This document shows positions 2,514-48,783 of a stretch of 64,000 nt of DNA, piece after piece; within the stretch, counting starts at the first letter, position 1, and every line of letters begins with the position of its first letter. The position numbers and the translations under genes were made by a program. This DNA comes from Phyllobacterium chamaecytisi (GTDB taxonomy: Bacteria > Pseudomonadota > Alphaproteobacteria > Rhizobiales > Rhizobiaceae). Location: assembly GCF_020164455.1 (NCBI RefSeq), contig NZ_JAIQWW010000002.1, positions 310,001 to 374,000 of the forward strand, in the 5' to 3' direction. The notes beneath the pieces were generated by a model. The model worked only from the letters and a program-made list of their open reading frames with translations, was not told the DNA's origin and did no database searches.

Positions 2514-4004
<1,491 letters not shown>

Positions 4005-4014
4005 GAGAAACGAC

Positions 4015-7385: not shown

Positions 7386-7595
7386 ATGGATGTTGTTGAT
7401 CTCGTTTTGACCATCTGTCTCATATCCAACCCGACGAGTTGTCGGGAGGAGCGCCTGCATTTTGAAAACAGGGGCGGCCTGAACAATTGCATGTTCCTCG
7501 CGCCGACAGAAATTGCAAAATGGTCCGGGGAACATCCAAAGCTCAAGGTCGTTCGGTGGAAATGCGATTATCCGTCAAAGGACCTCGAGCTCTAG
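7386..7595 (+). CDS. Small conserved cysteine-containing protein, first gene of the ABC operon
   Basis: A 69-residue protein beginning MDVVDLVLTICLIS and ending DYPSKDLEL. Four cysteines (about residues 11, 18, 34 and 59) and a WSGEHPKLKVVRWKC segment look like a family of short uncharacterised proteins I recall from Rhizobiales. The ATG at 7386 has GGGAGG seven bases upstream, better than the in-frame ATG at 7347. It ends 23 bases before the GTG of the substrate-binding protein. It has no clear signal peptide. Function unknown. Confidence 0.72.
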   Translation: MDVVDLVLTICLISNPTSCREERLHFENRGGLNNCMFLAPTEIAKWSGEHPKLKVVRWKCDYPSKDLEL

Positions 7596-7618
7596 GTCGA
7601 TCCGTCTGGGAGGACATC

Positions 7619-8602
7619 GTGGCAGGACTACATCAACGCCTTTTCCGCTTCTGTATCTTGCTCGCGCTCGCTCTTGGTTTTGGCACGCAGGCAAGCCCGG
7701 CTGCTGAAACGGTCCGTGTTGGCGTCCTGAAATTCGGGACTGTCAATTGGGAGCTGGACACGATCAAGCAGCACAAGCTCGACGAAAAATATGGCGTGAA
7801 TGTCGATGTCCGCTTCTTCGCCAGTGAAGATGCAACCAATGTCGCCATGATGGCCGGGGATGTTGATATCATTGTCACGGACTGGCTCTGGGTGTCGCGG
7901 CAGCGCGCGTCGGGCGAAGACCTGACCTTCGTGCCGTATTCCAGTTCAGTCGGCGCTTTGATGGTTCCCGATGGCTCGCCAATCAAAAGTCTGGCGGATC
8001 TCAAGGGCAAGAAGATCGGAGTGGCAGGCGGGCCGCTGGACAAGAGCTGGCTGCTCATACAGGGCTATGCCAAGCATAAGTTCTCACTCGATCTGCCGGC
8101 GCAAAGCGAAATTGTCTACGGCACGCCGCCGCTGCTTGCCGAAAAGGCGCAGCAAGGCGAACTGGATGCCGTGCTGAACTTCTGGAATTTTTGCGCAAGG
8201 CTTGAAGCAAACGGGTTCCATCGCCTGGTCAGTACCAGCGATGCTGCAAAGGCGCTCGGCGCCACAGGTGACGTGTCGGCTATCGGTTACATCTTTCACG
8301 ACAAATGGGCCGATGCCCATCCGGACGCAATAGCAGGTTTCGTCAAGGCCAGTCGAGATGCGAAGGCTCTGCTCGGCAGTTCCGATGCGGAATGGCAACG
8401 TTTGGCGCCGGTGGTGAAAGCCGAAGGCCATGAACTGGATGTGCTGCGTGACCGGTATCGCGAAGGTGTTCCCGACCGGCCAATCGAGGACGAACAGGCC
8501 GATGCGACGAAGCTCTATGCTATCCTCGCCGATCTTGGCGGCGAACGGCTCGTCGGCCCCGGAAAAGCCTTGGCACCGGGCACATTCTGGAGGGCAGACT
8601 AA
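7619..8602 (+). CDS. ABC transporter substrate-binding protein (NitT/TauT/SsuA type)
   Basis: Periplasmic binding protein of 327 residues with a signal peptide (LFRFCILLALALGFG, cleavage near ASPA). The fold is of the NMT1/THI5-SsuA type: VRVGVLKFGTVNWELDTIKQ, then a DVDIIVTDWLWVSRQR segment. I chose the GTG at 7619 because GGGAGG lies five bases upstream and the signal peptide begins right after it; upstream ATGs lie in the small-protein gene and lack signals. It heads an ABC trio (permease and ATPase follow) upstream of PQQ-relay genes. The substrate cannot be read from sequence; sulfonate, nitrate or a metal chelate are possibilities. Confidence 0.85.
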   Translation: MAGLHQRLFRFCILLALALGFGTQASPAAETVRVGVLKFGTVNWELDTIKQHKLDEKYGVNVDVRFFASEDATNVAMMAGDVDIIVTDWLWVSRQRASGEDLTFVPYSSSVGALMVPDGSPIKSLADLKGKKIGVAGGPLDKSWLLIQGYAKHKFSLDLPAQSEIVYGTPPLLAEKAQQGELDAVLNFWNFCARLEANGFHRLVSTSDAAKALGATGDVSAIGYIFHDKWADAHPDAIAGFVKASRDAKALLGSSDAEWQRLAPVVKAEGHELDVLRDRYREGVPDRPIEDEQADATKLYAILADLGGERLVGPGKALAPGTFWRAD

Positions 8603-9421
8603 TTGGCTCTTGCATCTAGCGAACAGCAGCAAACGGGCAAGCTTGTTTCCACCGCGGCTTCGAAGTGGCAGTGGAGCTCGCCACTTATGGTGTTGCTGTC
8701 GTTTGGCGCGTTGGTCGTTGCATGGCATGTCGGGGCGACGATCTGGCCCAGCCGCTCGTTCCCGGCGCCTTTGCTGGTTCTGCAAACCTTCATCAGCGAA
8801 ACGGCAAGCGGCGATCTGCCCTATAATCTCGGCATCACTTTGTGCCGCGTCGCCGCCTCCTTCGTTCTGGCGATGCTTATCGGCTCGGTCATCGGGGTCC
8901 TGCTTGGCAGCCATCGACGCGCAGACCAGTTCTTCAATCCGTGGGTCATTCTCTTCCTCAACATACCGGCACTGGTCATCATCGTCCTCGCCTATATCTG
9001 GTTCGGACTCAATGAAGCCGCAGCGATCGGCGCCGTAGCGCTCAACAAGATCCCGAATGTGGTCGTCACCATGCGCGAAGGAACGAGGGCGCTCGATCCG
9101 CGCTACGCGGAAATGGCGAAGGTGTACCGCTTCAATGCACTCGATCGCTTGCGGCATATACTGATCCCCCAGCTGCAGCCCTATATTGCCGCCGCGTCGC
9201 GTTCCGGTATTTCGCTGATCTGGAAAATTGTGCTCGTGGTCGAGCTGCTCGGCCGCTCCAACGGTGTTGGTTTTCAGATCAATCTGTTTTTTCAACTCTT
9301 CGATGTCGCGGCGATACTGGCCTATACACTGGCCTTTGTTGCCGTCATGCTCTTCATCGAACTCGTCGTGGTGCAACCGCTTGAACACACATCAACTCGC
9401 TGGCGTCGCAGCGCGGCTTAG
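8603..9421 (+). CDS. ABC transporter permease (NitT/TauT type)
   Basis: Inner-membrane permease of 272 residues of the binding-protein-dependent class, with about six membrane segments. The EAA-type loop is visible at about 170-190 (AEMAKVYRFNALDRLRHILIPQ). It starts at TTG directly after the stop of the binding protein, with GGAGGG eight bases upstream. It forms a transporter with the flanking binding protein and ATPase. Confidence 0.88.
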   Translation: MALASSEQQQTGKLVSTAASKWQWSSPLMVLLSFGALVVAWHVGATIWPSRSFPAPLLVLQTFISETASGDLPYNLGITLCRVAASFVLAMLIGSVIGVLLGSHRRADQFFNPWVILFLNIPALVIIVLAYIWFGLNEAAAIGAVALNKIPNVVVTMREGTRALDPRYAEMAKVYRFNALDRLRHILIPQLQPYIAAASRSGISLIWKIVLVVELLGRSNGVGFQINLFFQLFDVAAILAYTLAFVAVMLFIELVVVQPLEHTSTRWRRSAA

Positions 9422-10139
9422 GGTCAATATCGAAGAAAAATCGTTCCGCTCATCCAACGGTGGAACGATTGAGGTCCTGTGCGATCTGCGCTTCGAGGTC
9501 GAGCAGAACGAGTTCGCCTGTATCCTTGGACCGTCAGGTTGCGGGAAGACCACCACACTGCGCATTTTGCTTGGTCTCGATAGCGACTACCATGGGTCGA
9601 TCCAGTTGCCCGGATTGGCGGACGCGCGTATCGGGGCGGTGTTTCAGGAGCCGATGCTCCTGCCGTGGCGCACAGTCGAGCAGAATGTGCGGCTCGCCCT
9701 GCCCAAGCCCATGCGCGAGACGAACCTCGACATGCTGTTCAGCACGCTTGGCCTGTCGAAGATGCGCAATTTCTATCCGGCAGAGCTTTCGCTGGGGCTA
9801 GCACGCCGGGCGGCGATAGCGCGCGCGCTGGCGATCGAGCCGGATATACTTTTGCTTGATGAACCATTTGTCTCGCTGGATGAGTCCACAGCGCAGCAAC
9901 TCCGGCATATGCTGCTCTCCGTGTGGTCCGAGCGCCCGACAACCGCGTTGATGGTGACGCATAATTTGCAGGAGGCGATCATGCTCGCCGACCGTATCAT
10001 CGTGCTTTCCGAACGTCCCGCCCATGTGATCGGCACGTTCGATATCCGTCTGCCGCGCAATTATCGCAATCAGCAGGTGAAGGCTGATCTGTTGCGTTCG
10101 TTCAATGAAAAATTCGCTGGGGTGAGGAACCCACCATGA
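9381..10139 (+). CDS. ABC transporter ATP-binding protein with unusual signature motif
   Basis: ATPase of 252 residues for the SsuB/TauB-like transporter. Walker A GPSGCGKTT is at 50-58, Q-loop FQEP near 89, Walker B ILLLDEP near 156-162, and the switch His is H194. The ABC signature, normally LSGGQ/M, reads LSLGL at 136-140. No ATG lies near the beginning of the homologous region; TTG at 9381 is the nearest start and overlaps the permease by 41 bases, so the start is uncertain. It ends in an ATGA overlap with the next gene. Confidence 0.85.
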   Translation: MNTHQLAGVAARLRVNIEEKSFRSSNGGTIEVLCDLRFEVEQNEFACILGPSGCGKTTTLRILLGLDSDYHGSIQLPGLADARIGAVFQEPMLLPWRTVEQNVRLALPKPMRETNLDMLFSTLGLSKMRNFYPAELSLGLARRAAIARALAIEPDILLLDEPFVSLDESTAQQLRHMLLSVWSERPTTALMVTHNLQEAIMLADRIIVLSERPAHVIGTFDIRLPRNYRNQQVKADLLRSFNEKFAGVRNPP

Positions 10140-13068: not shown

Positions 13069-14892
13069 ATGCGTGTACACAAGAATTTAATTGGAATTGC
13101 ATTGGCTACAACGGCCATGACGTTCTCATTGGCGGGGGGAGCTCTGGCCAATGACGATCTTCAGGCTGTAATTTCTGATTCGAAGAACTGGGCTATCCAG
13201 ACCGGTGATTACGCTAATACGCGATACTCGAAACTCAATAAGATTACTGCGGACAATGTCAAAAACCTTCAGGTCGCCTGGACGTTTTCGACTGGTGTGC
13301 TGCGCGGCCATGAAGGAGGCCCGCTCATCGTTGGCGATGTGATGTATGTCCATGCGCCTTATCCGAACACCGTCTTTGCGCTTGACCTGAACAATGATGG
13401 CAAAATCCTCTGGAAGTATGAACCCAAGCAGGACGCAAACGTCATTCCCATCATGTGCTGCGATACCGTTAATCGCGGCGTAGCCTATGGCGACGGCAAG
13501 ATATTCCTTTATCAGGCCGATACAACACTCGTTGCCCTCGATGCAAAGACAGGCAAGCCCGAGTGGTCCGTGAAAAACGCCGAGGCGGTAGACGGCAGCA
13601 AGGGCGAGTCTGGAACGTCCGCACCAATGGTCGTGAAAGACAAGGTCATTGTCGGTATTTCCGGTGGTGAGTTCGGTGTTCGCGGTCATCTGACTGCCTA
13701 CAATATCAAGGATGGCAAGGAGGCCTGGCGTGCCTATTCGATGGGTTCCGACAAGGAGACCTTGGTCGATCCGGAAAAGACTACGGAGCTCGGCAAGCCC
13801 ATTGGAGCAGACTCCAGCACCAAGACCTGGGAAGGTGATCAGTGGAAAGTCGGTGGTGGAACGACCTGGGGTTGGTATTCGTACGATCCCAAGCTGAACC
13901 TGATCTATTACGGTACCGGCAATCCATCTACCTGGAACCCAAGTCAGCGCCCGGGTGACAACAAGTGGTCCATGACCATCATGGCGCGCGATGCCGATAC
14001 AGGCATGGCGAAATGGCTCTACCAGATGACCCCGCATGACGAGTGGGATTATGACGGTATCAACGAAATGATCCTCGCGGATGGCATCGAAGTCGATGGC
14101 AAGCCGCGTGATGTCCTCGTGCACTTCGATCGTAACGGCTTTGCCTATACGCTGGATCGTGCAACCGGTGAACTCCTGGTCGCAAAGAAATACGATCCGG
14201 CAGTCAACTGGGCGTCCGAAATCGACATGGACAAGGACAGCAAGACCTATGGCCGTCCGAAGCTCGTAGCGAAGTATTCAACGGCAAAAGAGGACGTCAA
14301 TGCGCAGGGCATCTGCCCGGCGGCTCTTGGTACGAAAGATCAACAGCCAGCTGCCTATTCGCCAAAGACCAAGCTTTTTTATGTTCCAACGAACCACGTC
14401 TGCATGGATTACGAGCCCTACAAGGTCAGTTACACCGCCGGTCAGCCTTACGTCGGCGCGACACTGTCCATGTATCCAGCTCCAAACAGCCATGGCGGCA
14501 TGGGTAACTTCATCGCATGGGATGCGGCGAAGGGTGAGATCGTCTGGTCCAAGCCCGAGCAGTTCTCGGTCTGGTCAGGCGCTTTGGCCACTGATGGCGA
14601 CGTTGTCTTCTACGGAACACTCGAAGGCTATCTGAAGGCGGTCGATAAGGACGGCAAGGAACTCTACAAGTTCAAGACACCGTCCGGCATCATCGGTAAC
14701 GTCACCACATACGAACATAAGGGCAAACAGTATGTTGCCGTTCTGTCGGGTGTTGGCGGATGGGCTGGTATCGGTCTTGCCGCTGGCTTGACGAAGCCGA
14801 ATGAAGGCCTTGGTGCGGTTGGCGGTTATGCTGCTCTTTCCGACTACACGGCCTTGGGCGGTCAGTTGACCGTTTTCGCTGTTCCTGAGTAA
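13069..14892 (+). CDS. xoxF: Lanthanide-dependent methanol dehydrogenase XoxF
   Basis: PQQ-containing periplasmic methanol dehydrogenase of 607 residues, oxidising methanol to formaldehyde or formate. A signal peptide ends near GGALAND. The eight-bladed propeller contains the vicinal disulfide C130-C131 (MCCD) and the catalytic motif DEWDYDG at 324-330: D327 is the catalytic Asp, and D329 is the extra Asp diagnostic of lanthanide-binding XoxF as opposed to calcium-type MxaF, which has Ala there. Sequence and neighbours (xoxG, xoxJ) suggest the XoxF5 clade. GGGAGG seven bases upstream fixes the start. No mxaF is present in the window. Confidence 0.97.
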
Positions 14893-14969: not shown

Positions 14970-15068
14970 TCCCCGTGTCACCTGATCCATATCGATGATT
15001 AAACCAACCGTCCAGGCGGCGCCGCAAGGTGCCGACCCAAATTGACGAGTTGAATGCGAGGTTCTTGT

Positions 15069-15593
15069 ATGCCTATTCGAATGACATTGCTTGCCGTCAC
15101 TGCCGGTCTTGCGCTTGTAGCGGGCCTCGGCAGCGCCTACGCCGATGACAAAGCCGCAGCAGCTGTTGCCTCCGACGAAAACGGCAAATATGCCGATAAG
15201 GATGGAACTCCAACATTCAAGATACAGCCGGATGGTACGGTCGATTGGTACACCTACAGCGGCTTTCGCCGGTTCAATTCGGATTGTTTTGTCTGTCATG
15301 GTGCTGATGGTGCCGGATCGTCCTTCGCACCGGCTTTGGCAAATTCGTTGAAGACAATGAGTTATTCTGATTTTCTTTCGATTGTCGCTGCGGGCCGCAA
15401 GAACCTCAGCGCTGGCAAGGAAAACGTCATGCCGGCTTTTGGCAATAACAAGAACGTCTACTGCTATATGGACGACCTCTATGTCTATCTGCGCGCACGC
15501 GCCGTGGGTGATTTGCCGCGCGGGCGGCCCGCGAAGCATGAGGACAAGCCACCTGCAGCCACTGAGGCAGAAGACTCCTGTATGGGTGGATAA
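15069..15593 (+). CDS. xoxG: Cytochrome c, electron acceptor of XoxF
   Basis: Periplasmic cytochrome c of 174 residues with a signal peptide ending near GSAYA (21-25). The heme motif is CFVCH (C73, C76, H77). The preceding DGTVDWYTYSGFRRFNSD segment is typical of XoxG/cytochrome cL. The ATG at 15069 is preceded by GCGAGG at seven bases; an ATG at 15054 is possible but lacks a site. It lies directly between xoxF and xoxJ, and xoxJ starts with its stop codon. Confidence 0.92.
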   Translation: MPIRMTLLAVTAGLALVAGLGSAYADDKAAAAVASDENGKYADKDGTPTFKIQPDGTVDWYTYSGFRRFNSDCFVCHGADGAGSSFAPALANSLKTMSYSDFLSIVAAGRKNLSAGKENVMPAFGNNKNVYCYMDDLYVYLRARAVGDLPRGRPAKHEDKPPAATEAEDSCMGG

Positions 15594-16457
15594 ATGATGC
15601 GAATTGCACGACCACTGATGAAATGGATAGCCGGTGGCGTTATGGCGGCGGCACTTGCCGTGCCGTCCGGTGCCTTTGCACAAGGCGCAGGTATCGGAGC
15701 CTCGGGCGAACTGGTCGATCCTGACGTCCTGCGTGTTTGTTCTGATCCGTCCAATATGCCGTTCTCCGACGAGAGCGGCAAGGGATTCGAAAACAAGCTG
15801 GCCGAACTTGTGGCGGCAAAGACCGGGCGTAAATCGGTAGCCTATACATGGTTCCCGATGGCGACGGGCTTCGTCCGCAGTACACTGCGGGCCAATCGCT
15901 GCGACATTATCATGGGATACGCGCAAGGCGACGAACTCGTCCAGAATACCAATGCCTATTACCGCTCGACCTATGTGATGATCTACAAGAAAGACAGCGG
16001 ACTTGATGGTGTGGATACGATCGAGGACAGCAAATTGGCTGACAAGAAAATTGGCGTTGTTGCCGGAACTCCGCCGTCGGCAAACCTCGCCAAGGTCGGC
16101 TACATGCGCAATGTCCATCCCTATCCGTTGATGGTCGATACAAGGCTCGCGCCTTCGATGGCGGAGGTCATGATCAAGGAACTCAAAAGTGGCGTGATCG
16201 ACGTTGCGATCCTTTGGGGGCCGATGGCAGGTTATTATGCCAAAGAGATCGATCCGAACCTGACGGTGGTTCCCCTGATCAAGGAAAAGACCGGGCATAT
16301 GGCATACCGGATCACGATGGGTGTGCGCCCATCCGATCAGGAGTGGAAGCGCACATTGAACAAGGTCATCCGGGAGAACCAGAGTGAGATCAACAAGATC
16401 CTGCTCGATTTCCAGGTGCCCCTGATCGACGAGAATAACAAGCCGATCACGCACTAG
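15594..16457 (+). CDS. xoxJ: XoxJ, quinoprotein-associated periplasmic binding protein
   Basis: Periplasmic solute-binding-like protein of 287 residues belonging to the quinoprotein dehydrogenase-associated family (MxaJ/XoxJ). Signal peptide to about GAFAQ; then DPDVLRVCSDPSNMPFSDESG, typical of the family. It starts immediately after the xoxG stop (TAAATG), with a weak GGGTGG site. XoxJ is thought to help activate or mature XoxF rather than transport a solute. The start could be the second ATG one codon later. Confidence 0.92.
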   Translation: MMRIARPLMKWIAGGVMAAALAVPSGAFAQGAGIGASGELVDPDVLRVCSDPSNMPFSDESGKGFENKLAELVAAKTGRKSVAYTWFPMATGFVRSTLRANRCDIIMGYAQGDELVQNTNAYYRSTYVMIYKKDSGLDGVDTIEDSKLADKKIGVVAGTPPSANLAKVGYMRNVHPYPLMVDTRLAPSMAEVMIKELKSGVIDVAILWGPMAGYYAKEIDPNLTVVPLIKEKTGHMAYRITMGVRPSDQEWKRTLNKVIRENQSEINKILLDFQVPLIDENNKPITH

Positions 16458-16630: not shown

Positions 16631-17194
16631 ATGAAGCGAGGTGAAAAACCGGTGCGGAACTGTTCCTGTGCGTTGGCCGTTTTACTTACCGTACTGGTGA
16701 CGACGGCTTTTGCGGGTGAAACGGCTCCGGAGCCGACAGACTACAGGACTGAAAATTACAGGGCGCCGGTTCCTGCCACCCTGAAGGGGGCAAAGGTGGT
16801 CACGACCGAGGAAACCATCGCCCTGTGGAAAGACAAATCGGCGGTGTTCGTCGATGTCCTTCCTCACGATCCCAAGCCGGCAAATCTTCCGGCCGGGACG
16901 ATCTGGAGGGAAAAAGTCCGGGAGGATATCCCCGGGAGCATATGGCTCGCAAACGTGGGCTATGGAATCATAAACAAGGAGACGGAAGCCTATTTTCGCA
17001 AAGGGCTGAAATCTCGGTTGGGCGACGACACGAAACGAAAGGTGCTTTTTTACTGTATGGCGAACTGCTGGATGTCCTGGAATGCGGCCAAAAGAGCCGT
17101 CGAGTGGGGATACAAATCGGTGCTTTGGTATCCTCTCGGCACGGATGGCTGGACCGCGGCGAAGCAGCCAACACAGAAAAATGAGCCCTTTTAA
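16631..17194 (+). CDS. PQQ-dependent catabolism-associated CXXCW protein (rhodanese-like)
   Basis: Exported 187-residue protein of the PQQ-associated CXXCW family, with a rhodanese-like fold. The signature is CMANCW at C142-C146. A signal peptide spans roughly residues 11-28 (LAVLLTVLVTTAFA). The ATG at 16631 has a poor ribosome site; GTG at 16652 would also keep the signal peptide. It lies 75 bases upstream of pqqA on the same strand, after the xoxFGJ genes. Its biochemical role is not established. Confidence 0.85.
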   Translation: MKRGEKPVRNCSCALAVLLTVLVTTAFAGETAPEPTDYRTENYRAPVPATLKGAKVVTTEETIALWKDKSAVFVDVLPHDPKPANLPAGTIWREKVREDIPGSIWLANVGYGIINKETEAYFRKGLKSRLGDDTKRKVLFYCMANCWMSWNAAKRAVEWGYKSVLWYPLGTDGWTAAKQPTQKNEPF

Positions 17195-17686: not shown

Positions 17687-17739
17687 AATGGTTGTTCGGC
17701 CGGAACTTAGGTTTCCGGAAGGAGAGGGTTTGTGCCCGC

Positions 17740-18675
17740 ATGCGATTGACAGTCATCGGCTCCGCAGCAGGAGGCGGGTTTCCCCAGTGGAATTGCAATT
17801 ATCGATTGAGCCGTGGAGCGCGGGATGGCGAAGCCAATTTCCGTGCGAGAACCCAGTCCAGCCTCGCCGCCAGCGCGAACGGGCACGATTGGGTTTTGTT
17901 CAACGCATCGCCCGACATTCGCCAGCAGATAGCGGTCACGCCTGAATTACAGCCGCGGGCCGATGAACCGTTGCGCTCGACGCCTATCCGCGCCGTCATC
18001 CTGACCAATGCCGATGTCGATCATATTGCCGGGCTGCTCAGCCTGCGTGAGCGCGAACCGTTCACGATTTATGCGACACGGCGGGTTCTCGACGTCCTTG
18101 AATCCAATTCAATCTTCAACGTTCTTGATCGTGAAATAGTCCGAAGGCGCGAGCTCGCCGTGGGTAAGAGCACGGATATTCTTGACGCACAGGGAAATCC
18201 TGTCGGCATTACTGTCGAAACTTTTCCTGTGCCGGGTAAGGTTGCGCTTTTTCTCGAAGACAAATCGAAGGCGAGTGAAGGGTTTGGCACAAAGGAAGGT
18301 GATACGATTGGCTTGCGCATCGCATCGGACGATGGTGCGACGGCCTTCTATATTCCGGGCTGCGCCGGTATCGATGCGCCCCTTAGAGCGCGGCTGTCAG
18401 GTGCCGATTGCCTGTTCTTCGATGGCACCGTCTATACCGATGACGAGATGATCACGGCAGGCGTAGGTACAAAAACCGGCGCACGCATGGGCCATATGTA
18501 CATTTCGGGCGAGGGCGGTTCGCTGGCGGCTCTGGCGGATCTTGGCATCAGGAAGCGGATCTATGTGCACATCAACAATACCAACCCCATTCTCGACGCG
18601 GCATCGCCTGAACATGCGGCGGTTGTCGCAGCGGGCTGGAAAATAGCATTTGACGGCATGGAGGTCAGGCTTTGA
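17740..18675 (+). CDS. pqqB: PQQ biosynthesis protein PqqB
   Basis: MBL-fold protein of 311 residues that acts late in PQQ synthesis, probably as a hydroxylase of the cross-linked tyrosine intermediate. It opens MRLTVIGSAAGGGFPQWNC, typical of PqqB. The motif TNADVDHIAGLL (about 89-100) replaces the full HxHxDH. The ATG at 17740 follows AAGGAGAGG by 12 bases. The upstream in-frame codons are in the repeat flank and are not conserved in style. It overlaps pqqC by four bases. Confidence 0.95.
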   Translation: MRLTVIGSAAGGGFPQWNCNYRLSRGARDGEANFRARTQSSLAASANGHDWVLFNASPDIRQQIAVTPELQPRADEPLRSTPIRAVILTNADVDHIAGLLSLREREPFTIYATRRVLDVLESNSIFNVLDREIVRRRELAVGKSTDILDAQGNPVGITVETFPVPGKVALFLEDKSKASEGFGTKEGDTIGLRIASDDGATAFYIPGCAGIDAPLRARLSGADCLFFDGTVYTDDEMITAGVGTKTGARMGHMYISGEGGSLAALADLGIRKRIYVHINNTNPILDAASPEHAAVVAAGWKIAFDGMEVRL

Positions 18676-19427
18676 GCAAATTCGGCAATGCGGCGCGAGA
18701 CGGATTGTCACCGGCTGATCTGGAAAAAGTTCTGCGCCAGGTCGGTGCCGAGCGCTATCACAATCGTCACCCCTACCATCATCAGATGGTCAACGGCGCT
18801 TTGACCAAGGGTCAGATGCAGGCCTGGGCGCTCAATCGCTATTGCTATCAGTCGGTCATTCCGCGCAAGGATGCGATGATCATTGCTCGAGCCGAGGATC
18901 CCGAATTTCGTGCCGAATGGCGCAAGCGGATCGAAGATCATGATGGCGACGACGGCTGGAGCGGCGGCATCGCGCGCTGGCTCAAGCTTGCTACGGGTCT
19001 TGGCCTCGATGCAGATGATGTCAAAAGTGAAAAGCTGGCGCTGCCGGGCACGCGGTTTGCGGTCGGAGCCTATCTTTCCTTCTGTACCAACCGCACGCTG
19101 CTTGAGGCCGTTGCGTCGTCGCTGACCGAGCTATTCTCGCCCGTTATCATCAGCGAGCGTGTGCCGGCCATGCTGGCGAAATATGATTATGTGACGCCGG
19201 ATATCCTCGCCTATTTTGACAAGCGGCCGACACAGGCGTCACGCGATTCCGATTTCGCCCTGGCCTATGTGATGAAACATGCCGATACGCCGGAAAAGCA
19301 GCAAGCCGTCATCGACGCGCTTATTTTCAAGTGCGATATCCTCTGGGCAATGCTCGATGCGTTAGCGCATGCCTACGGCGAAAAGGGCAACATCCCGCCC
19401 GGCGCTTTCGATCCGGAGGCGTCATGA
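18672..19427 (+). CDS. pqqC: PQQ synthase PqqC
   Basis: Cofactor-less oxidase of 251 residues catalysing the last ring closure and oxidation to PQQ. Conserved segments include YHNRHPYHHQM (28-38), ALNRYCYQS, and IPRKDAMI. It begins at TTG, overlapping the pqqB stop by four bases, with GGAGG nine bases upstream. It overlaps pqqD by four bases, indicating coupled translation. Confidence 0.96.
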   Translation: MSKFGNAARDGLSPADLEKVLRQVGAERYHNRHPYHHQMVNGALTKGQMQAWALNRYCYQSVIPRKDAMIIARAEDPEFRAEWRKRIEDHDGDDGWSGGIARWLKLATGLGLDADDVKSEKLALPGTRFAVGAYLSFCTNRTLLEAVASSLTELFSPVIISERVPAMLAKYDYVTPDILAYFDKRPTQASRDSDFALAYVMKHADTPEKQQAVIDALIFKCDILWAMLDALAHAYGEKGNIPPGAFDPEAS

Positions 19428-19723
19428 CTCACGCAAGTCGCGTCCGTGCGGTTGTTTCCATGCAATCGCGACCCATATTAAAGTCTCATGCGCGTCTGCA
19501 GTATGATACGGTGCGCGAAGCATGGGCGCTGCTGTCGCCAGAACGGGTGTTCTGGCCGAATGAAGTGAGCCTCGATATTTTGAGGCTGTGCGATGGCCGC
19601 CACAGCGTTGCGCAGATGATTTCATTGCTGGCGGACCAGTATGCAGCAGATGAAGCCGAGATCGCGCCGGATGTAACCGGCTTTCTGCAGGAATGGTCCG
19701 ACAAGTTTCTGGTGACGTTATGA
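19424..19723 (+). CDS. pqqD: PqqA-binding chaperone PqqD
   Basis: A 99-residue RiPP recognition protein that presents PqqA to PqqE. The wHTH-like fold is visible as AWALLSPERVFWPNEVSLDIL followed by CDGRHSVAQMI. The ATG at 19424 overlaps the pqqC stop (ATGA) and has GGAGG five bases upstream; the longer frame upstream is a pqqC shadow. It overlaps pqqE by four bases. A short N-terminal extension before the conserved core is present. Confidence 0.94.
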   Translation: MTHASRVRAVVSMQSRPILKSHARLQYDTVREAWALLSPERVFWPNEVSLDILRLCDGRHSVAQMISLLADQYAADEAEIAPDVTGFLQEWSDKFLVTL

Positions 19724-20844
19724 ACGAACCTGTCCTACCCCCGATCGGCATGCTGGCGGAATTGACGCATCGCTGCCCGCTGCAGTGTGCCTATTGCTCC
19801 AATCCGGTCGAGCTGTTGAAAGCCAACCGGGAAATGGATACGGCAGGCTGGCTCTCGCTGTTCGAACAGGCCGCGGACCTCGGCGTTCTGCAGGTACATC
19901 TTTCCGGCGGCGAGCCAACGCTTCGTGCCGACCTCGGAGAACTTATTGCCTGTCTGGCGCGGCGTGGCGTCTATACCAATCTCATCACGGCGGGCGTTGG
20001 CATCGCCGATGGCCGGATTGAAGCCTGGGCCGACGCCGGGCTCGATCATATCCAGCTGAGTTTCCAGGGCGCGTTTGCTGCTACCACCGAGAAGATCGGC
20101 AATTCGCGCGGCGCCCATGAAAAGAAGCTCGAAACGGCACGCCGCGTCCGTGCGGCAGGTCTGCCCTTGACGATCAATGCGCCGATCCATCGCCACAACA
20201 TGGAAGAAGTGCCGGATTTCATCGAACTCGCGCTCTCCCTCGGCGCCGAGCGGCTTGAAATCGCCAATGTGCAATATGCGGGCTGGGCTCTGCTCAATCG
20301 CAAGGCGCTGATGCCGGAACGCGAAGCGGTCGAGCGGCAGGTGCAGATCGTCGAGGAGGCGCAGGAACGTCTGCGCGGCATCATGACGATAGACTTCGTC
20401 ACGCCCGATTATTTCGCCATCTATCCGAAACCCTGCATGGGCGGCTGGGCGCGCGATGCCTTCATGGTCGCGCCCGATGGAACCGTGCTTCCATGCCATG
20501 CTGCCGGCACGATCAAGTCTCTGCATTTCGAGCGTTTCGGCGACTGGAGCCTCAGCCGAATCTGGCATGAATCGTCAGCATTCAATGCGTTTCGCGGAAC
20601 AAGCTGGATGCAGGAACCCTGCCGCAGATGCGAGCGCCAGGAGATCGATTGGGGCGGTTGCCGCTGTCAGGCCATGGCAATCGCCGGCGACGCGGCTGCT
20701 ACGGACCCGGCCTGCATCAAATCTCCGCTGCATGCGCGCATGGGCGCGCTGATCAACGAGGCAATCAGCACAAAGACGGCCGACACAACGCCGGACGCCT
20801 TCACCTATCGCCGCATCGGCCGTGTCACCGAACCTATGGTTTGA
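19720..20844 (+). CDS. pqqE: PqqA peptide cyclase PqqE (radical SAM)
   Basis: Radical SAM enzyme of 374 residues that forms the Glu-Tyr C-C bond in PqqA. The SAM iron-sulfur motif is CPLQCAYC (C19, C23, C26), with GGEPTLR near 75. A C-terminal SPASM region holds further cysteines (CMGGWARDAF, CHAAG, CRRCERQEIDWGGCRC). The ATG overlaps pqqD by four bases. Its 3' end overlaps the convergent gene by 11 bases. Confidence 0.96.
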   Translation: MNEPVLPPIGMLAELTHRCPLQCAYCSNPVELLKANREMDTAGWLSLFEQAADLGVLQVHLSGGEPTLRADLGELIACLARRGVYTNLITAGVGIADGRIEAWADAGLDHIQLSFQGAFAATTEKIGNSRGAHEKKLETARRVRAAGLPLTINAPIHRHNMEEVPDFIELALSLGAERLEIANVQYAGWALLNRKALMPEREAVERQVQIVEEAQERLRGIMTIDFVTPDYFAIYPKPCMGGWARDAFMVAPDGTVLPCHAAGTIKSLHFERFGDWSLSRIWHESSAFNAFRGTSWMQEPCRRCERQEIDWGGCRCQAMAIAGDAAATDPACIKSPLHARMGALINEAISTKTADTTPDAFTYRRIGRVTEPMV

Positions 20845-21466
20845 TGATCGATTTCTGGATCGTCTTCGACAGCCCGTACAGGCGTTGCTCGATGATCGTC
20901 GGCACTTCGCAGACATAGGTCAGCGATTGGACCCGTTCCTCGAATATGCGGGTTTCCCAGGTCAGCCTTTCATTCGCCCTGTCCAGTTCTTCTGGATCCG
21001 CATCAGGCTTGGCGCGCATCGCGTCCACTGTCGAGGCTTCCTTGCGCAGATCCTCCGCCATGTCACGTTGCTTGTCGGCGTAGCGTGAGATACCGGATAT
21101 CACCTGCTCGCGCTCGCGGTTCAACGTGTCGAATACACCCTGAAACAGCATGAACATCTTGTCGTTCACCTGTTCTTTCGGCAGTCCTCCGGCGAACTCG
21201 ACGATCTGCTTTTGTGCCCCGTCGAGCGGATTGCGCCGCGCCGCGACTTCGCCAACGAGATCATCGATTTTTGGATCGCTATCCCAATTTTTCGCCGCCT
21301 CTGGAATGTCCGGGCCATTCCACACCTGGCCGATCGAAAGTTCCGGTACCTTGCGCTGGACGCAAGGCCAGCTCGGATCATTGTTCGCAGCGGCAATAGC
21401 AGCATTGCCGGAGAGCAGCAGGACAAGGCCAGCCGACGCCGCGAAGAATACCTTTGACCGTTTCAA
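20834..21466 (-). CDS. Exported protein, last gene of the lut-like operon
   Basis: A 210-residue protein with a signal peptide (AASAGLVLLLSGNAAIAA). The mature part starts NNDPSWPCVQRKVPELS and is rich in charged helices, likely coiled coil, from about 100 to 180, with a second cysteine near 190 (YVCEVP). I do not recognise a named domain. It overlaps the ABC permease by four bases and sits where an unnamed exported protein (lutG position) occurs in the Methylobacterium lanthanide-transport cluster as I recall it. Confidence 0.75.
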   Translation of the reverse strand: MKRSKVFFAASAGLVLLLSGNAAIAAANNDPSWPCVQRKVPELSIGQVWNGPDIPEAAKNWDSDPKIDDLVGEVAARRNPLDGAQKQIVEFAGGLPKEQVNDKMFMLFQGVFDTLNREREQVISGISRYADKQRDMAEDLRKEASTVDAMRAKPDADPEELDRANERLTWETRIFEERVQSLTYVCEVPTIIEQRLYGLSKTIQKSIIKP

Positions 21467-22317
21467 TTATTGCCTCCCTCTTGTTTCTTGATGACGAGAC
21501 CGCGCGAGGGGTCATAGGCGATGATTGCGCCCGCAATGAAAATGATGGTGAACCCGCAGACGACGGCAAGCGAGGTCCACTCGATCTGTCCGTAAAATGC
21601 GAAGCGCACCAGTTCGACCGCATAGGTAAACGGATTGAGCAGGCAGATCTTGTAGAGCAGGGGACTTGCCTCTTGTACGCGCCACAACGGGTAAAGCGCC
21701 GAAGAGGCAAAATACATCGGGAAGATCACGAAATTCATGATGCCGGCGAAGTTTTCCAGCTGCTTGATCAGGGACGACAAAAGCATTCCAAGCGCGCCCA
21801 GCATCATGCCCGACAGGAACAGTGCCGGCAGCGTCAGCAGATATCCGGATGGCGGCGCCTTGACGCCCCAGAACCAGGCGATGAACAGGAAGGCGTAGAC
21901 CTGAATGATGGAAACGGCAACGCCGGCCAATAGCTTCGACACCAGCAGGAACCAGCGCGGAAACGGACTGACGAGCAGCGTGCGCATATTGCCCATTTCC
22001 CGGTCGTAGACCATGGAGAGGGACGATTGCATGCCGCTGAACAGGAGGATCATGCCGCACAGGCCGGGCGTGATGTAGACCTCGTAAAGCACATAGGTCT
22101 GATAAGGCGGGATAATCGAAACGCCGAGCACCTGCCGGAAGCCAGCCGCAAAGATGAACAGCCACAAGAGTGGCCGCACCAGCGACGAGATGAAGCGTTC
22201 GCGCTGGTTGAGATAGCGCAGGCCTTCGCGGATGAGGATACCTTTGAGGCAAACGAGATAATTCATCACGCCGAAGCGGCTGCGTCCGATGGGGACGCGG
22301 CTGGCAATGTCCGTCAT
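21463..22317 (-). CDS. ABC-2 type permease, PQQ-dependent alcohol dehydrogenase system (lutF-like)
   Basis: Membrane protein of 284 residues with about six hydrophobic segments and an ABC-2 pattern (NMRTLLVSPFPRWFLL, LLNPFTYAVELVR near 230-242). It belongs to the permease family found with PQQ alcohol dehydrogenases (PedC-like). It overlaps the ATPase gene by four bases and the exported-protein gene by four bases. ABC-2 permeases are often exporters, while the operon also has a binding protein, so transport direction is open. Confidence 0.88.
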   Translation of the reverse strand: MTDIASRVPIGRSRFGVMNYLVCLKGILIREGLRYLNQRERFISSLVRPLLWLFIFAAGFRQVLGVSIIPPYQTYVLYEVYITPGLCGMILLFSGMQSSLSMVYDREMGNMRTLLVSPFPRWFLLVSKLLAGVAVSIIQVYAFLFIAWFWGVKAPPSGYLLTLPALFLSGMMLGALGMLLSSLIKQLENFAGIMNFVIFPMYFASSALYPLWRVQEASPLLYKICLLNPFTYAVELVRFAFYGQIEWTSLAVVCGFTIIFIAGAIIAYDPSRGLVIKKQEGGNN

Positions 22318-23120
22318 AGCCGGTTCCCCGCATTCAATGCATATATCCCGGTAAGCCGAGAGAACGCCTCGTTGATCGTCTCCGCCCCGGCGTTCTTGAC
22401 CACGTCATGCACCGGACCATTGGCGACGAGCTTGCCCTGGTTGAGGACAATGACCTGATCCGCATGGCTGACCTCGTCGATCAAATGCGTCGCCCACAGG
22501 ACGCTGATGCCCTTCTCCTCGACCAGCTTGCGAATATCGGCGAGGATGGTGGCGCGCGATTTGATATCGAGGCCAACGGTCGCTTCATCGAGCAGCAACA
22601 GCGAGGGTTCGTGCAACAGCGCCCGCACAATCTCCACGCGCCGGATTTGCCCGCCGGAGAGGCTGCGGGCTTTTTCATGGAGCCGGTCGCTCATGTCGAT
22701 GGATTGCATCAGATCGTGAATGCGTCGGTTGGCTTCGCGCGAGCGAATGCCATGCAGCGATGCATGGTAGGAGAGGTTCTGATGCACTGAAAGATCGAGA
22801 TCGAGCGTGCGTGCCTGGAAAACAATGCCGAGCCGCCGCAACGCATCGCCCGGCCGCCGGTCGATGTCGTGACCGAACACATGGATGCGGCCATGCCTTG
22901 TTGCGAACAGATGACTTATGAGCGAGAACAACGTCGTCTTGCCGGCTCCGTTCAGGCCAAGCAGCACGGCAAAACGGCCTGGCGCTATGGAAAACGTGAC
23001 GTTTTCCAGCGCCTGGCGTTTGCCATAGGCGTAACTCACCGATGCGAGATCAAGCGCCGGAAGATTTGCTTCCGGCATTGACTTGTCATTGATGTTCCTC
23101 AGTCCGGCATTTGTACCCAT
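22314..23120 (-). CDS. ABC transporter ATPase, PQQ-dependent alcohol dehydrogenase system (lutE-like)
   Basis: ATPase of 268 residues. Walker A GLNGAGKTT is at about 55-63, signature LSGGQ at 154-158, Walker B LLLLDEA at 174-180, and a switch His in WATHLIDE. I chose the ATG at 23120, which follows GGTGGAG by five bases; the longer frame upstream lacks a site. It partners the ABC-2 permease and matches the PQQ-associated ATPase family. Confidence 0.88.
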   Translation of the reverse strand: MGTNAGLRNINDKSMPEANLPALDLASVSYAYGKRQALENVTFSIAPGRFAVLLGLNGAGKTTLFSLISHLFATRHGRIHVFGHDIDRRPGDALRRLGIVFQARTLDLDLSVHQNLSYHASLHGIRSREANRRIHDLMQSIDMSDRLHEKARSLSGGQIRRVEIVRALLHEPSLLLLDEATVGLDIKSRATILADIRKLVEEKGISVLWATHLIDEVSHADQVIVLNQGKLVANGPVHDVVKNAGAETINEAFSRLTGIYALNAGNRL

Positions 23121-23173
23121 CAAGCTCCACCCTTGGTACCTTATGCGACGACGACCTTGCCGCAAACTGACGG

Positions 23174-23671
23174 CTATTTGATGGTAATCGTACCCTTCAT
23201 TCCCTTGTCTGCAAGGTCTGGCACGGACCAGGTGTATTTACCGGGCCGCACCGCCGTAAACTGTACATTGATCGTCCCCGGCGAGTCGAATTCGAGCCAG
23301 GCCGGCCCGCCATCCATATGCACTTCAAGATCGTTGATGACGATCTGGTTCATCCAGACATTGCGGAAAAGATCGGTGACGAATTTGTATTCAAGTCCGG
23401 CCGCGGACGTGATCTTCCAGCGATAGCCCTGTCCGGCAACCAGTTCGAAATCCTTCTGATTGACCGTGAATTCATCCTCTTTCGAACCGAGAATAAGCTC
23501 TGGCACATTCTTGCTGCCGCGCGTGATCGCCGGCGGCTTTGCCTGCATCGCCGCTTTCGGCTCCTGTGCTGCCTTGGCGTCGTCATCGTCGTCAGCCTGA
23601 GCAAAGGCAAAGGATTGAGCCAGTCCGACGCTGAGAAATGCGGCCAGCGCGAGCGTTTTATATGTTGTCAT
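23174..23671 (-). CDS. Exported cupredoxin-like protein with an acidic N-terminal run
   Basis: A 165-residue protein with a signal peptide ending near SFAFA (about 20-24) and then QADDDDDAK. The body (about 55-165) looks like a cupredoxin-like beta-sandwich (DLEVHMDGGPAWLEF, GTINVQFTAVRPGKYTW), but I cannot find the usual His-Cys-His-Met copper set, so copper binding is doubtful. The ATG at 23671 follows GGGAGG. It lies between the beta-propeller gene and the ABC ATPase. The Asp run right after the cleavage site could bind a trivalent metal; this is inference. Confidence 0.75.
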   Translation of the reverse strand: MTTYKTLALAAFLSVGLAQSFAFAQADDDDDAKAAQEPKAAMQAKPPAITRGSKNVPELILGSKEDEFTVNQKDFELVAGQGYRWKITSAAGLEYKFVTDLFRNVWMNQIVINDLEVHMDGGPAWLEFDSPGTINVQFTAVRPGKYTWSVPDLADKGMKGTITIK

Positions 23672-23702
23672 GTAGTTCCTCCCTTTGGTCTTCAGAATTA
23701 CT

Positions 23703-24680
23703 TCAATTCGGCGATATCGCGACGCCCCATGGCAACTGCCCCACGGTGACGGATTTGATCGGCTCATCGGTTTCCGTGTCGATAAATGTGATGTCGTTCG
23801 ACAACCCGTTGGTGCTGATGATCTGTTTGCCATCCGGCATGAATGCGAGCTGCCATACCCGCTGTCCGACAAGCACGTATTTTTCGACCTCGTAGGTTTC
23901 CGTATTGACCACTGCGACCCGGTTCGCAGGCCCGAGCGCTACATAGGCTTTCTTGCCATCGGCGGCGATGCGGATACCCACAGGCTGGATCTGTTCGGAG
24001 CGCAATCCCTGGATTTCGAAGGTGATCTTGTGGGTCACCGCGCGGGTCTTGTTGTCGATGACCGATACAGTGCCGCCGATTTCAGCGGATACCCAAACCT
24101 CGGAACCGTCAGGCTTGAACTCGGCAAAGCGCGGGCGCGAATCCACGAGTACATTGTCGGTGATTTCATGGGTCGACGTATCGATGAAATGCGCCATGCT
24201 CGTCGTCTCGGAGGTATTGACGATGGTCTTGCCGTCCGGGCTCACACCCATGCCTTCCGGCTCGACGCCAACCGGTATCTCGGCAACCACACCCTTGGTA
24301 TTGACGTCGATCACTGTGACGAGATTGTCGTCCTCATTGGCGACATAGAGCGTCTGGCCATCCGGCGACAGGACGAAAAGCTCGGGGTCGGGACCTGACG
24401 GCAGCGATCCCACGACCTCGTTCGTGGCGGTGTCGATCATTTCGACCGTGTCGTCATCGCTGGCGCAGACATAGATGATCTTCCCGTCGGGCGAGATGGT
24501 TATGCCGCGCGGCCGTTGTCCGACATTGATCGTCTTGACCACCTCCATGGTCTTCGAATCGACCACGGTTACGGTGTTGTCTTTCTCATTCGAGACATAG
24601 ACCAGATTTGCCCAGGCGGGCTGTGCAAGAAATGGCAGCGCTATGGTCGCAGCGAGCAGGCACATGTGTCGTCGTCGCAT
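23703..24680 (-). CDS. PQQ-associated YVTN beta-propeller protein (lutD-like)
   Basis: Periplasmic protein of 325 residues with a signal peptide ending near QPAWA and about seven YVTN-type repeats (LVYVSNEKDNTVTVVD, IIYVCASDDDTVEMID, TLYVANEDDNLVTVID and so on). It fits the PQQ-dependent catabolism-associated beta-propeller family. In Methylobacterium a protein of this type belongs to the lanthanide transport cluster (LutD). It lies 24 bases downstream of the binding-protein gene. Confidence 0.88.
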   Translation of the reverse strand: MRRRHMCLLAATIALPFLAQPAWANLVYVSNEKDNTVTVVDSKTMEVVKTINVGQRPRGITISPDGKIIYVCASDDDTVEMIDTATNEVVGSLPSGPDPELFVLSPDGQTLYVANEDDNLVTVIDVNTKGVVAEIPVGVEPEGMGVSPDGKTIVNTSETTSMAHFIDTSTHEITDNVLVDSRPRFAEFKPDGSEVWVSAEIGGTVSVIDNKTRAVTHKITFEIQGLRSEQIQPVGIRIAADGKKAYVALGPANRVAVVNTETYEVEKYVLVGQRVWQLAFMPDGKQIISTNGLSNDITFIDTETDEPIKSVTVGQLPWGVAISPN

Positions 24681-24704
24681 TTTGGTCCTCCCAATCCATT
24701 GTTC

Positions 24705-25943
24705 TTAATTAAGCTTGCACTTGGTCTCCGGCCTGTCCACGCCCAGCGTATCGAGCTCCGAGAACTGATGCAGGAAACCTTCCTGCGGCGAGGTGGAAAC
24801 GACGCCGTGGCCATCGCCGATCAGGATCGGCTGGCGCAACTGCCAGTTCCAGTTGCGGAAACTGAGTTTTTGTCCCTTGAAGGCCGCTATGGAAAAGTCA
24901 TCCGCCTTGATGAAAGTTTCGACCTGTTTGGGGTCGTTTCCCTTTGACCGCGTGATTGCCTCTCCCAATATTCGCACTGCAGTCCAAGCCTGCATGTCTT
25001 TCGACAGCATCCGCCGTCCCGTCGCCTTGTCGAAACGGTTCTGAATCTGTGATCCGCCCCATTGTTCGCTGGCGGGGTGCCAGCTTGAGGGAACCAGTCC
25101 GGCCGTTCCTGCCACCGGCCGCGGCGTCCAGGTCCGGTAAGGGACGTAGCTGCCGAAAACCTCGCTCTCGTCGGCGACGATGACCACATCGTGTTCCGGC
25201 AGGTTCTGGGTGAATACCGGCATCTGCTTTTGCACCTGGATGACGCCGGTATCGGTCCTGCGCGCGGTGCCCTTGTCCTCGTAAAGCCGCTCTTCGACGA
25301 TCGTTGCGCCGAACCGCGTGGCGGCACGGCGGATCGCATCGGCATAGAGCTTGTCGCGGTCGTGCGAGCCATAGAGCAGCACCCATTTGCGCCATTGTTT
25401 CCAGACGAGGTATTGCGCCAGTCCGTCGGCGAGCATGCTTCGCGTCGGCGCCGTGTGGAAGACGTTCGAGCGGCATTCCTCCTCGCGCAGACTGTCATCC
25501 GTAGCGCCTACATTGAACAAGAGGACGCCGCTATCCTTGGCAAGATCGGCAATCGACAGCAATTGCTTGGCGGAAATGTCGGTCAGGATGAACTTGTCGC
25601 CGCGGGCGAGCATTTCCTTGAACACGGGCACTACGTCGGCGTCGAACTTCGTCTCGGTCACATCCAGCGCAAAACTCTGGCCCAGAAACTTGCCGGTCGT
25701 ATTGTTGTCGTTGATGGCGACATTGGCGCCGGCCACGCCCTCGTCCCGGGGCGGTATATCGAGTACGGATAGTGCCAGTTGCGGTTCATAGGCGCGAAGA
25801 TAGCCAATGCGCGTTTCAACCACTGGTTTTGCAGGTTTATTCGTCGCAGCCTGCTGCGCCGATGCTCCGGACACGTTGACGAACAGCAAAAAAAAGCCGA
25901 ATAAAACTGAGAGAGTGTTTGGCACCGTACTCTTCATGATCAT
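24705..25943 (-). CDS. ABC substrate-binding protein, PQQ-dependent alcohol dehydrogenase system (lutA-like)
   Basis: Periplasmic binding protein of about 412 residues, branched-chain amino acid-receptor-like fold. Signal peptide FGFFLLFVNVSGASAQ follows the start. TRIGYLRAYEPQLALSVLD opens the mature domain, and GSYVPYRTWTPRPVAGT is typical of the PQQ-ABC binding family. The start is uncertain: ATGs at 25964, 25943 and 25937 all lack good ribosome sites; 25943 keeps a normal signal peptide length. It is the first gene of the six-gene reverse operon ending at 20834. Confidence 0.85.
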   Translation of the reverse strand: MIMKSTVPNTLSVLFGFFLLFVNVSGASAQQAATNKPAKPVVETRIGYLRAYEPQLALSVLDIPPRDEGVAGANVAINDNNTTGKFLGQSFALDVTETKFDADVVPVFKEMLARGDKFILTDISAKQLLSIADLAKDSGVLLFNVGATDDSLREEECRSNVFHTAPTRSMLADGLAQYLVWKQWRKWVLLYGSHDRDKLYADAIRRAATRFGATIVEERLYEDKGTARRTDTGVIQVQKQMPVFTQNLPEHDVVIVADESEVFGSYVPYRTWTPRPVAGTAGLVPSSWHPASEQWGGSQIQNRFDKATGRRMLSKDMQAWTAVRILGEAITRSKGNDPKQVETFIKADDFSIAAFKGQKLSFRNWNWQLRQPILIGDGHGVVSTSPQEGFLHQFSELDTLGVDRPETKCKLN

Positions 25944-26092: not shown

Positions 26093-27271
26093 ATGCTGAT
26101 GACACAAATGCTGGCGAGCGTTCAGGATGTTCTTGAGGCGGAAATCGTCTTCCAGAATGGTGCGGATATCATCGATCTGAAGGATCCGGCGAACGGTGCA
26201 CTTGGCGCGGTTGCACTGTCCAAGCTTATGGAAGTTATCGATTTTATTGCGGGAAGGCGGCCCGTCAGTGCCGCTTGCGGCGATCTTCCCATGCAACCTG
26301 AAGTCGTTCGCACAAAGGTTGAGGAATTCGCCGCAACCGGCGTGGACTATATCAAGATCGGGCTCTTCGCGTCAGGCAATTTAGCCGGCTGTCTGGAAGC
26401 GCTGAAGCCGCTTGCGTCACACAAAAAATTGATCGCGGTGCTCTTTGCCGACTACCGCGATACGTACAGCGAAAATCTGTTTGCGGAGCTCTCTTCCGCT
26501 GGTTTTCACGGCGTGATGATCGATACGGCCGACAAGTCGAAAGGGCGGCTACTCGACCACATGACACCTGACCAGATCGGCAAATTCATCAAGGATGGCC
26601 AGTCGCACGAGTTGAAGGTTGGCGTTGCCGGATCGCTCGAAGCGCCGGATATCCCGCGTCTGTTGGCCTATGCCCCGGATTTTCTCGGTTTCCGCGGTGC
26701 GCTGTGTTCAGGTCTCGATCGCACTGCGCCGATCGATGCGCAGGCAACAGCGAAGATTCGCGGCCTGATCCCCGAGGCTCTTGAGGCGAGCGCCCCTCCT
26801 GGCGTCGACTACAAGCTGCTCGCCGCGCGCGGTTATTTCCCCGATCCTGCCGAAGCCGGACTTGGAACCGACAAGATATTCGTCCGTGATTTCGTTTTGC
26901 CCGTCCATATCGGCGCCTATAGTTTCGAGCATGGCAAGGCGCAGAAGGTGCGTTTCGATGTGTCAGCCGATGTCTTGCGGGTGACGCGCAACCCGGAAGA
27001 CATGCGCCACGTCGTGTCCTACGATCTCATCATGGATGGCATTCGTGCCATCGTCGCGCGCGGCCATATCGAGCTTGCCGAAACGCTGGCCGAGCAGGTA
27101 GCGGCTTTCGTTCTGGAAAATCCGCGCGTGACCCGCGTCGTCGTACGGGCCGAAAAGCTGGAGCTTGGACCCGGCGGTGTCGGTGTAGAGATCGAGCGGA
27201 AAAACGATGTGAAGAATTCATCGGCCAAGCCCCGGCCGATCCATGCGCATGGAGGCCGGAAATCCTCATGA
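26093..27271 (+). CDS. MfnB-like (4-HFC-P synthase) fused to dihydroneopterin aldolase
   Basis: A 392-residue two-domain protein. Residues 1-235 are a (5-formylfuran-3-yl)methyl phosphate synthase (MfnB, DUF556) with lysines in DLKDPANGALGA (about 28-39), DYIKIGLF and TADKSKGRLLDH. Residues about 260-370 are a FolB-type dihydroneopterin aldolase (FVRDFVLPVHIGAYSFEHG, then VVSYDLIMDGI, ELAETLAEQVA). The domains would serve methanofuran and pterin synthesis respectively, both needed for H4MPT-linked C1 metabolism. It begins a tightly coupled operon; the next ATG overlaps by four bases. Weak GGGGG ribosome site. Confidence 0.88.
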   Translation: MLMTQMLASVQDVLEAEIVFQNGADIIDLKDPANGALGAVALSKLMEVIDFIAGRRPVSAACGDLPMQPEVVRTKVEEFAATGVDYIKIGLFASGNLAGCLEALKPLASHKKLIAVLFADYRDTYSENLFAELSSAGFHGVMIDTADKSKGRLLDHMTPDQIGKFIKDGQSHELKVGVAGSLEAPDIPRLLAYAPDFLGFRGALCSGLDRTAPIDAQATAKIRGLIPEALEASAPPGVDYKLLAARGYFPDPAEAGLGTDKIFVRDFVLPVHIGAYSFEHGKAQKVRFDVSADVLRVTRNPEDMRHVVSYDLIMDGIRAIVARGHIELAETLAEQVAAFVLENPRVTRVVVRAEKLELGPGGVGVEIERKNDVKNSSAKPRPIHAHGGRKSS

Positions 27272-48772: not shown

Positions 48773-48783
48773 GATTTTTCCAT

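Follow-up and report, generated by a model that had tools for sequence, protein, structure and literature searches.

A Reduced lut-Type Operon Beside xoxF in Phyllobacterium chamaecytisi and Its Probable Role in Lanthanide Import

The window analyzed here is a 64,000-nucleotide stretch of the Phyllobacterium chamaecytisi genome (6.36 Mb in 93 contigs; G000:C12:310001-374000, contig NZ_JAIQWW010000002.1). GTDB assigns the genus to Rhizobiaceae, while the P. zundukense plasmid record used for comparison below gives Phyllobacteriaceae. Between positions 20834 and 25943, its reverse strand carries six genes that very probably constitute a lanthanide (Ln) utilization and transport (lut) cluster, lutABCEFG, serving the adjacent methanol dehydrogenase XoxF, with LutA, LutE, and LutF as an inner-membrane lanthanide importer and LutB, LutC, and LutG as accessory proteins. 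Orthology, gene order, and co-occurrence with xoxF are the observed basis of the lut identity; homology and the phenotypes of Methylorubrum and Pseudomonas mutants point to lanthanide as the cargo and to import as the direction.

The Six-Gene Operon

A preliminary description of this DNA, made from its letters alone, had proposed six reverse-strand genes, which the open reading frames (ORFs), gaps, and overlaps confirm. The first, lutA (24705-25943, with an alternative start possible at 25964), encodes a putative periplasmic substrate-binding protein of the type I periplasmic-binding-protein class (TIGR03863, 488 bits, cut-off 413.6; PF13458), for which a PDB sequence search gave no match. It is followed by lutB (23703-24680), coding for an exported YVTN beta-propeller (TIGR03866, 510 bits, cut-off 287.3), and by lutC (23174-23671), coding for an exported protein of predicted cupredoxin fold, recognized by alignment with Methylobacterium lutC and by a fold search of its predicted model. 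Then come lutE (22314-23120, its start picked to match the P. zundukense annotation), specifying an ATP-binding cassette (ABC) ATPase (TIGR03864, 336 bits, cut-off 302.25), lutF (21463-22317), specifying an ABC-2 type permease (TIGR03861, 397 bits, cut-off 241.35), and lutG (20834-21466), which begins with TTG and encodes an exported helical protein (alignment of 24 rows). The binding protein, YVTN propeller, ABC ATPase, and ABC-2 permease named in the preliminary description are thus confirmed by family matches. Four of the six proteins (LutA, LutB, LutE, and LutF) score above cut-off with NCBIfam models for an ABC system associated with pyrroloquinoline quinone (PQQ) alcohol dehydrogenases, and no Pfam or NCBIfam family was matched by LutC or LutG at E ≤ 0.001.

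From lutA downward, the genes are separated by 24, 31, and 53 nt, followed by two 4-nt overlaps, and GGAGG precedes lutB, lutC, and lutG. The arrangement is operon-like, and the six genes are read as a single unit. Counts of promoter-like (4) and terminator-like (8) sites, versus 2.1 and 5.8 in shuffled sequences, were not informative. Plasmid p_unnamed4 of P. zundukense has all six annotated as coding sequences, identically ordered and 92-99% identical; because of this annotation and conservation, and since lutA recurs across the genus (18 of 20 genomes), the ORFs are taken as real genes rather than chance.

Distribution and Synteny

The 18 Phyllobacterium genomes that carry lutA are the same that carry xoxF (89-100% identical to that of the window), and both genes are absent from the other two (G003 and G012). 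In 17 of these genomes the two genes share a contig, G014 being the exception, and in all 18, as judged from short loci, mfnB is the divergent neighbor of lutA. It could still be that the transporter carries some other metal, or a small molecule of methanol metabolism, so that the lut names mislead here, and no paper was found joining Phyllobacterium with xoxF and methanol dehydrogenase, or with methanol and lanthanide. This is extremely unlikely, however, given that lutA accompanies a lanthanide-type XoxF in 18 of 20 genomes, that both are missing from the other two, and that orthology extends across the whole operon.

Comparison loci were obtained by scanning named genomes with a LutH alignment, which yielded at least 80 loci, all therefore with LutH; among the matches listed (80 loci), 30 have lutA in reach and 50 do not. 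M. extorquens itself is not among them, and other named Methylobacteriaceae-type loci were used in its place. Seventeen of the 30 belong to Methylobacteriaceae or Beijerinckiaceae, and all 17 show the order lutA-B-C-D-E-F-G-H with a divergent mfnB. Identity to these 17 is 41-46% for LutA, 61-66% for LutB, 43-48% for LutC, 49-57% for LutE, 61-66% for LutF, and 39-45% for LutG (39-66% overall). The earlier suggestion of a match to the lutA-lutG part of the Methylobacterium cluster, therefore, holds in part: all six proteins align with these loci, in the same order and with the same divergent mfnB, but lutD is missing, and the cluster is lutABCEFG rather than a full lutA-lutG. The remaining 13 of the 30 come from Bradyrhizobium, Tardiphaga, or unclassified Hyphomicrobiales, and there mfnB is not beside lutA. 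Over 93 lutA loci, some of which represent the same place twice, mfnB is divergent in 46, including one from another family (L035). This adjacency, common to both sides of the lutA tree, may be ancestral.

Direction of Transport and Cargo

By homology, LutA, LutE, and LutF would form an inner-membrane ABC system taking Ln3+, or an Ln3+ complex, from the periplasm into the cytoplasm, while LutB, LutC, and LutG would be exported accessories that bind or pass on the metal or support the transporter. The outer-membrane step would most likely rely on porins or a general siderophore receptor rather than on a dedicated LutH.

Mutants of related systems bear on the direction (the papers cited here and below are represented by excerpts). 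In M. extorquens, lutE and lutF mutants fail to grow on methanol with lanthanum (La) before suppressors appear, and their La is retained in the periplasm (PMC7391723). In Pseudomonas putida, deletion of pedA1A2BC raises the La requirement about 100-fold (PMC6839425). It has to be weighed against this whether LutEF instead exports a chelator, PQQ, or a lipid or protein, LutA sensing or holding the cargo and the lanthanide link being indirect. LutF does match PF01061 (110 bits), LutE and LutF have DrrA and DrrB as their next-best NCBIfam models, TIGR03861 carries the name alcohol ABC transporter permease, and PedB is tabulated as an ABC efflux transporter ATPase (PMC12997753). Export is nevertheless unlikely, as the La deposits are periplasmic in lutA, lutE, and lutF mutants alike (PMC7391723), the pedA1A2BC deletion increases the need for La, and importers typically have a binding protein of their own.

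A different emphasis would be that the operon chiefly matures periplasmic XoxF, by delivering Ln, PQQ, or both to the apo-enzyme, cytoplasmic import being secondary. Export-signal-like N-termini, judged by eye, are present in four of the six products, and the cluster is linked to xoxF and pqq genes, with a PqqT-like system tied to it at other loci. The M. extorquens phenotypes make this very unlikely, since loss of LutE or LutF stops growth and loss of LutA, LutB, or LutG slows it (PMC7391723).

Several points weigh against an operon that imports lanthanides for XoxF. The cargo assignment follows from homology. In the lutA tree (87 rows), the window falls within its genus; the next grouping adds the family genomes G034, G132, and G225 (22 rows, 100/100), and the one after that Bradyrhizobium and others (45 rows, 98/89), away from Methylobacterium lutA, which forms a separate group. 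A fourth family member, G030, sits elsewhere on a long branch, and the deeper joins are unsure because several branches are long. The best-known members of the ABC-2 family export their substrates, which makes import by the LutF fold unusual. LutC was not seen in any of the 10 Bradyrhizobium and Tardiphaga loci among the matches listed, and it is, therefore, not essential to lut-type clusters. Finally, the cluster has no LutD, a protein that in M. extorquens binds lanthanide but whose loss there causes no significant growth defect (PMC7391723).

LutC and LutG

The 'cupredoxin-like' label given earlier to LutC is borne out by a Foldseek search of its predicted structure, even though the model is of intermediate quality (mean pLDDT 65.7; below 50 for residues 1-51 and 63-89 in the remaining blocks). 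The cupredoxin AcoP was matched at E 1.7e-6, among 564 PDB matches at E ≤ 0.001, and the top matches are cupredoxins at 12% identity. Type 1 copper centers use Cys, His, and Met as ligands. LutC has no Cys and one His, and its alignment (18 rows) shows no invariant Cys or Met; the type 1 ligand set is, thus, lacking in both sequence and alignment. The invariant residues of these 18 rows include E94, E116, E127, and D129. The predicted fold would be compatible with a possible cupredoxin freed of copper and serving another metal. A LutC-like gene directly follows a LutH-like receptor gene in two bins of Beijerinckiaceae that have no lutA in reach (L120 8757-9266; L121 12455-12907).

LutG has two invariant Cys over its 24-row alignment. 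Its predicted model is a helical bundle (mean pLDDT 88.2), for which a PDB fold search returned no match at E ≤ 0.001.

Absent Components and Outer-Membrane Receptors

The preliminary description had also noted that the TonB receptor (LutH) and lanmodulin were missing here, and this is borne out for the whole genome. For LutH-class receptors, the best score in the P. chamaecytisi genome is 26 bits, and scores do not exceed 48 bits in the 22 family genomes searched, against controls of 1463 bits in G214 (independent) and 1568 bits in G321 (a row of the query alignment). A further 25 genomes with lutA gave LutH (at least 677 bits) in 11 and no LutH in the other 14, among which are the four from the window's family; three of the 11 (G194, G283, and G142) contributed sequences to the query, and the independent count is 8 of 22. 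Over both sets, a LutH-class receptor was found in none of the family's 24 sampled genomes, of which 22 carry lutA.

For lanmodulin, the best E-value in the P. chamaecytisi genome is 0.62. The strong matches elsewhere (G214, 1.6e-71; G321, 1.5e-64) are both rows of the query alignment, and the search did not include G014 and G017. EF-hand proteins were also matched in relatives (G034 at 1.5e-15, G013 at 1.5e-12 in two copies, G010 at 1.5e-10, and more weakly elsewhere); those of G013 and G034 were rejected as lanmodulin, lacking the DPD loop start of the lanmodulin alignment. The best EF-hand protein of P. chamaecytisi has, by eye, one loop. At another locus (L220, genome G044), a XoxF-like gene has nearby a duplicated lutA together with an ORF weakly resembling lanmodulin (38%). 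Among the 17 listed Methylobacteriaceae-type loci, lanmodulin was recognized in 5 and LutI in 15, with queries taken from L081, itself one of the 17 (as L090). With lanM recognized in reach in only 5 of 17, a missing lanM says little by itself about a difference between clusters.

LutI is absent from the operon, the genome not having been searched for it. As for LutD, whose gene sits between lutC and lutE in Methylobacterium, these two genes are only 53 nt apart here, and one LutD query found no match in the genome at E ≤ 1, with two controls at 5e-26 and 2e-27. A lanM mutant of M. extorquens strain PA1 shows no significant defect (PMC9260416); as the same holds for the M. extorquens lutD mutant, the absence of LutD and lanmodulin need not impair uptake. 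Background on LutH, LanM, and LutD is given in PMC12482762, PMC9260416, and PMC10848612.

TonB-receptor matches (PF00593) are lacking in the window, and the genome has three clear ones and a weak one (on C5). The three look like two siderophore types and one heme type by family matches: the receptor on C2 exceeds the cut-off of a siderophore-receptor model (1106 bits, cut-off 884), that on C67 is of the heme type, and that on C12 (119794-122112) is FhuA-like, below the FhuA cut-off, and lies beside fhuD- and fhuB-like genes. The C12 receptor was considered as a lut partner and rejected because it does not track lut across the genus: of 21 genomes, 17 have it at an identity of at least 64%, the lut-negative G012 among them, and it is absent at that level from the lut-positive G001, G014, and G034.

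The Methanol and PQQ Neighborhood

The adjacency to pqq and xoxF proposed in the preliminary description is real, the neighbors being pqqBCDE and xoxF. On the plus strand, xoxF5 (13069-14892; TIGR03075, 752 bits) encodes a lanthanide-type methanol dehydrogenase, 95% identical to a protein annotated XoxF5, with the motif WDYDG at residue 326, whose Asp pair is typical of lanthanide-type enzymes. It is the single match to XoxF at E ≤ 1e-100 in the genome, further PQQ_2 matches being 24-29% identical. Downstream, on the same strand, follow a xoxG-type cytochrome c gene (15054-15593; TIGR03874), xoxJ (15594-16457; TIGR03871; PDB 6onp XoxJ, E 3.4e-62), a gene for a PQQ-associated CXXCW protein (16631-17194; TIGR03865), and pqqB, pqqC, pqqD, and pqqE (17692-20844, pqqB taken from its first possible start), which are 94-98% identical to the annotated P. 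zundukense pqqBCDE. The 3' ends of pqqE and lutG overlap by 11 nt.

On the other side, an mfnB-folB fusion (26093-27271, plus strand; PF04476 and PF02152, and synteny) is the first gene divergent from lutA. It joins MfnB, the 4-(hydroxymethyl)-2-furancarboxaldehyde phosphate synthase, to a FolB (dihydroneopterin aldolase) domain, within a block for tetrahydromethanopterin (H4MPT) biosynthesis. The window further encodes fhcD, formylmethanofuran dehydrogenase subunit A, mch, and the large subunit of ribulose-1,5-bisphosphate carboxylase/oxygenase (RuBisCO; 2544-4004). The minus strand also carries a tandem pair of phnM-like genes that overlap each other (47633-48811 and 48784-49989).

Contig C12 (397,739 bp) is probably a plasmid, like p_unnamed4 of P. 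zundukense. LutA is 97% identical to LutA on a 394,220-bp plasmid of that species, on which H4MPT genes, lut, pqqABCDE, xox, a SoxYZ-like carrier, ABC genes, and CbbX/RuBisCO follow in the same order. With RuBisCO, XoxF, PQQ, lut, and H4MPT genes together, as on p_unnamed4, contig C12 is a probable methylotrophy plasmid.

A PqqT-Like ABC System

A separate ABC system, outside the six-gene operon, lies on the plus strand upstream of the SoxYZ-like and xoxF genes (7487-10139) and comprises a PqqT-like substrate-binding protein, a permease, and an ATPase; it is probably PQQ-binding. The binding protein (7487-8602) is homologous to PqqT of M. extorquens AM1, matching PDB 9b1u and 9b1v at E 3.7e-74, and the permease and ATPase have NCBIfam matches of the nitrate/taurine/sulfonate type below cut-off. 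Entry 9B1V holds PqqT with PQQ and Gd (review PMC12828617; background in PMC12124388).

The adjoining of a PqqT-like system and lutA in other Hyphomicrobiales is the best lead obtained here. In an unpicked count, 10 of 52 short loci around lutA, from four families, contain a homologue. The system is present at 12 of 20 larger lutA loci, a figure that is not unbiased since eight had been picked for this neighbor; the others give 4 of 12. In the picked loci (L204-L211), the ABC set is the divergent neighbor of lutA, in four cases standing between it and mfnB, and at the Sinorhizobium meliloti plasmid locus (L089) PqqT-like ABC genes lie inside the lut operon. The excerpts of PMC12828617 and PMC12124388 do not mention lut, and the link may nonetheless be published.

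A speculative and unlikely extension is that PQQ itself acts as the lanthanophore in relatives devoid of LutH and lanmodulin: the PqqT-like system would recapture PQQ or Ln-PQQ, LutABCEFG would handle the metal, and the cupredoxin fold of LutC would be turned to lanthanide through its invariant carboxylates. If so, PQQ produced by the neighboring pqq genes would chelate Ln3+, and cofactor and metal uptake for XoxF would be one coupled system.

Comparison with Known Systems

A lanthanide importer of this kind would extend to Phyllobacterium, and the family-wide result (0 of 24 genomes with a LutH-class receptor) supports an inner-membrane lut core that is separable from LutH. Passage of lanthanides across the outer membrane without LutH could be tested here, as the genome's clear TonB receptors number only three.

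The reference system is the lut cluster of Methylorubrum extorquens AM1 (META1p1778-1787; PMC7391723). Like the 17 listed Methylobacteriaceae-type loci, the Phyllobacterium cluster has lutA, B, C, E, F, and G in order, with mfnB divergent from lutA; unlike the AM1 cluster, it is without lutD, lutH, lanM, and lutI and adjoins xoxF and pqqBCDE. The listed Bradyrhizobium and Tardiphaga loci differ from it in having LutH in reach (10 of 10) and no LutC, the former reflecting selection, because these loci were found by LutH.

A lut operon of reduced content is anticipated by work on other rhizobia and on Pseudomonas Ped. Homologues of lutA, B, E, F, and G at 40-60% are reported in Bradyrhizobium and Sinorhizobium, with no obvious LutH in S. 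meliloti in the excerpted text (PMC12628762); its lut is, like that of Phyllobacterium, a reduced cluster without LutH. At the S. meliloti locus (L089), a LutG homologue (31%) was seen at 3901-4437, away from the lut operon and unlisted in the incomplete gene table. PedA1A2BC of P. putida KT2440 has a common ABC core of binding protein, propeller, ATPase, and permease without LutH (PMC6839425, PMC12997753). It serves PedH, the lanthanide alcohol dehydrogenase of a non-methylotroph, and LutC and LutG are not named in the excerpts on it. The same four-gene core, without LutH, is found in the Phyllobacterium cluster.

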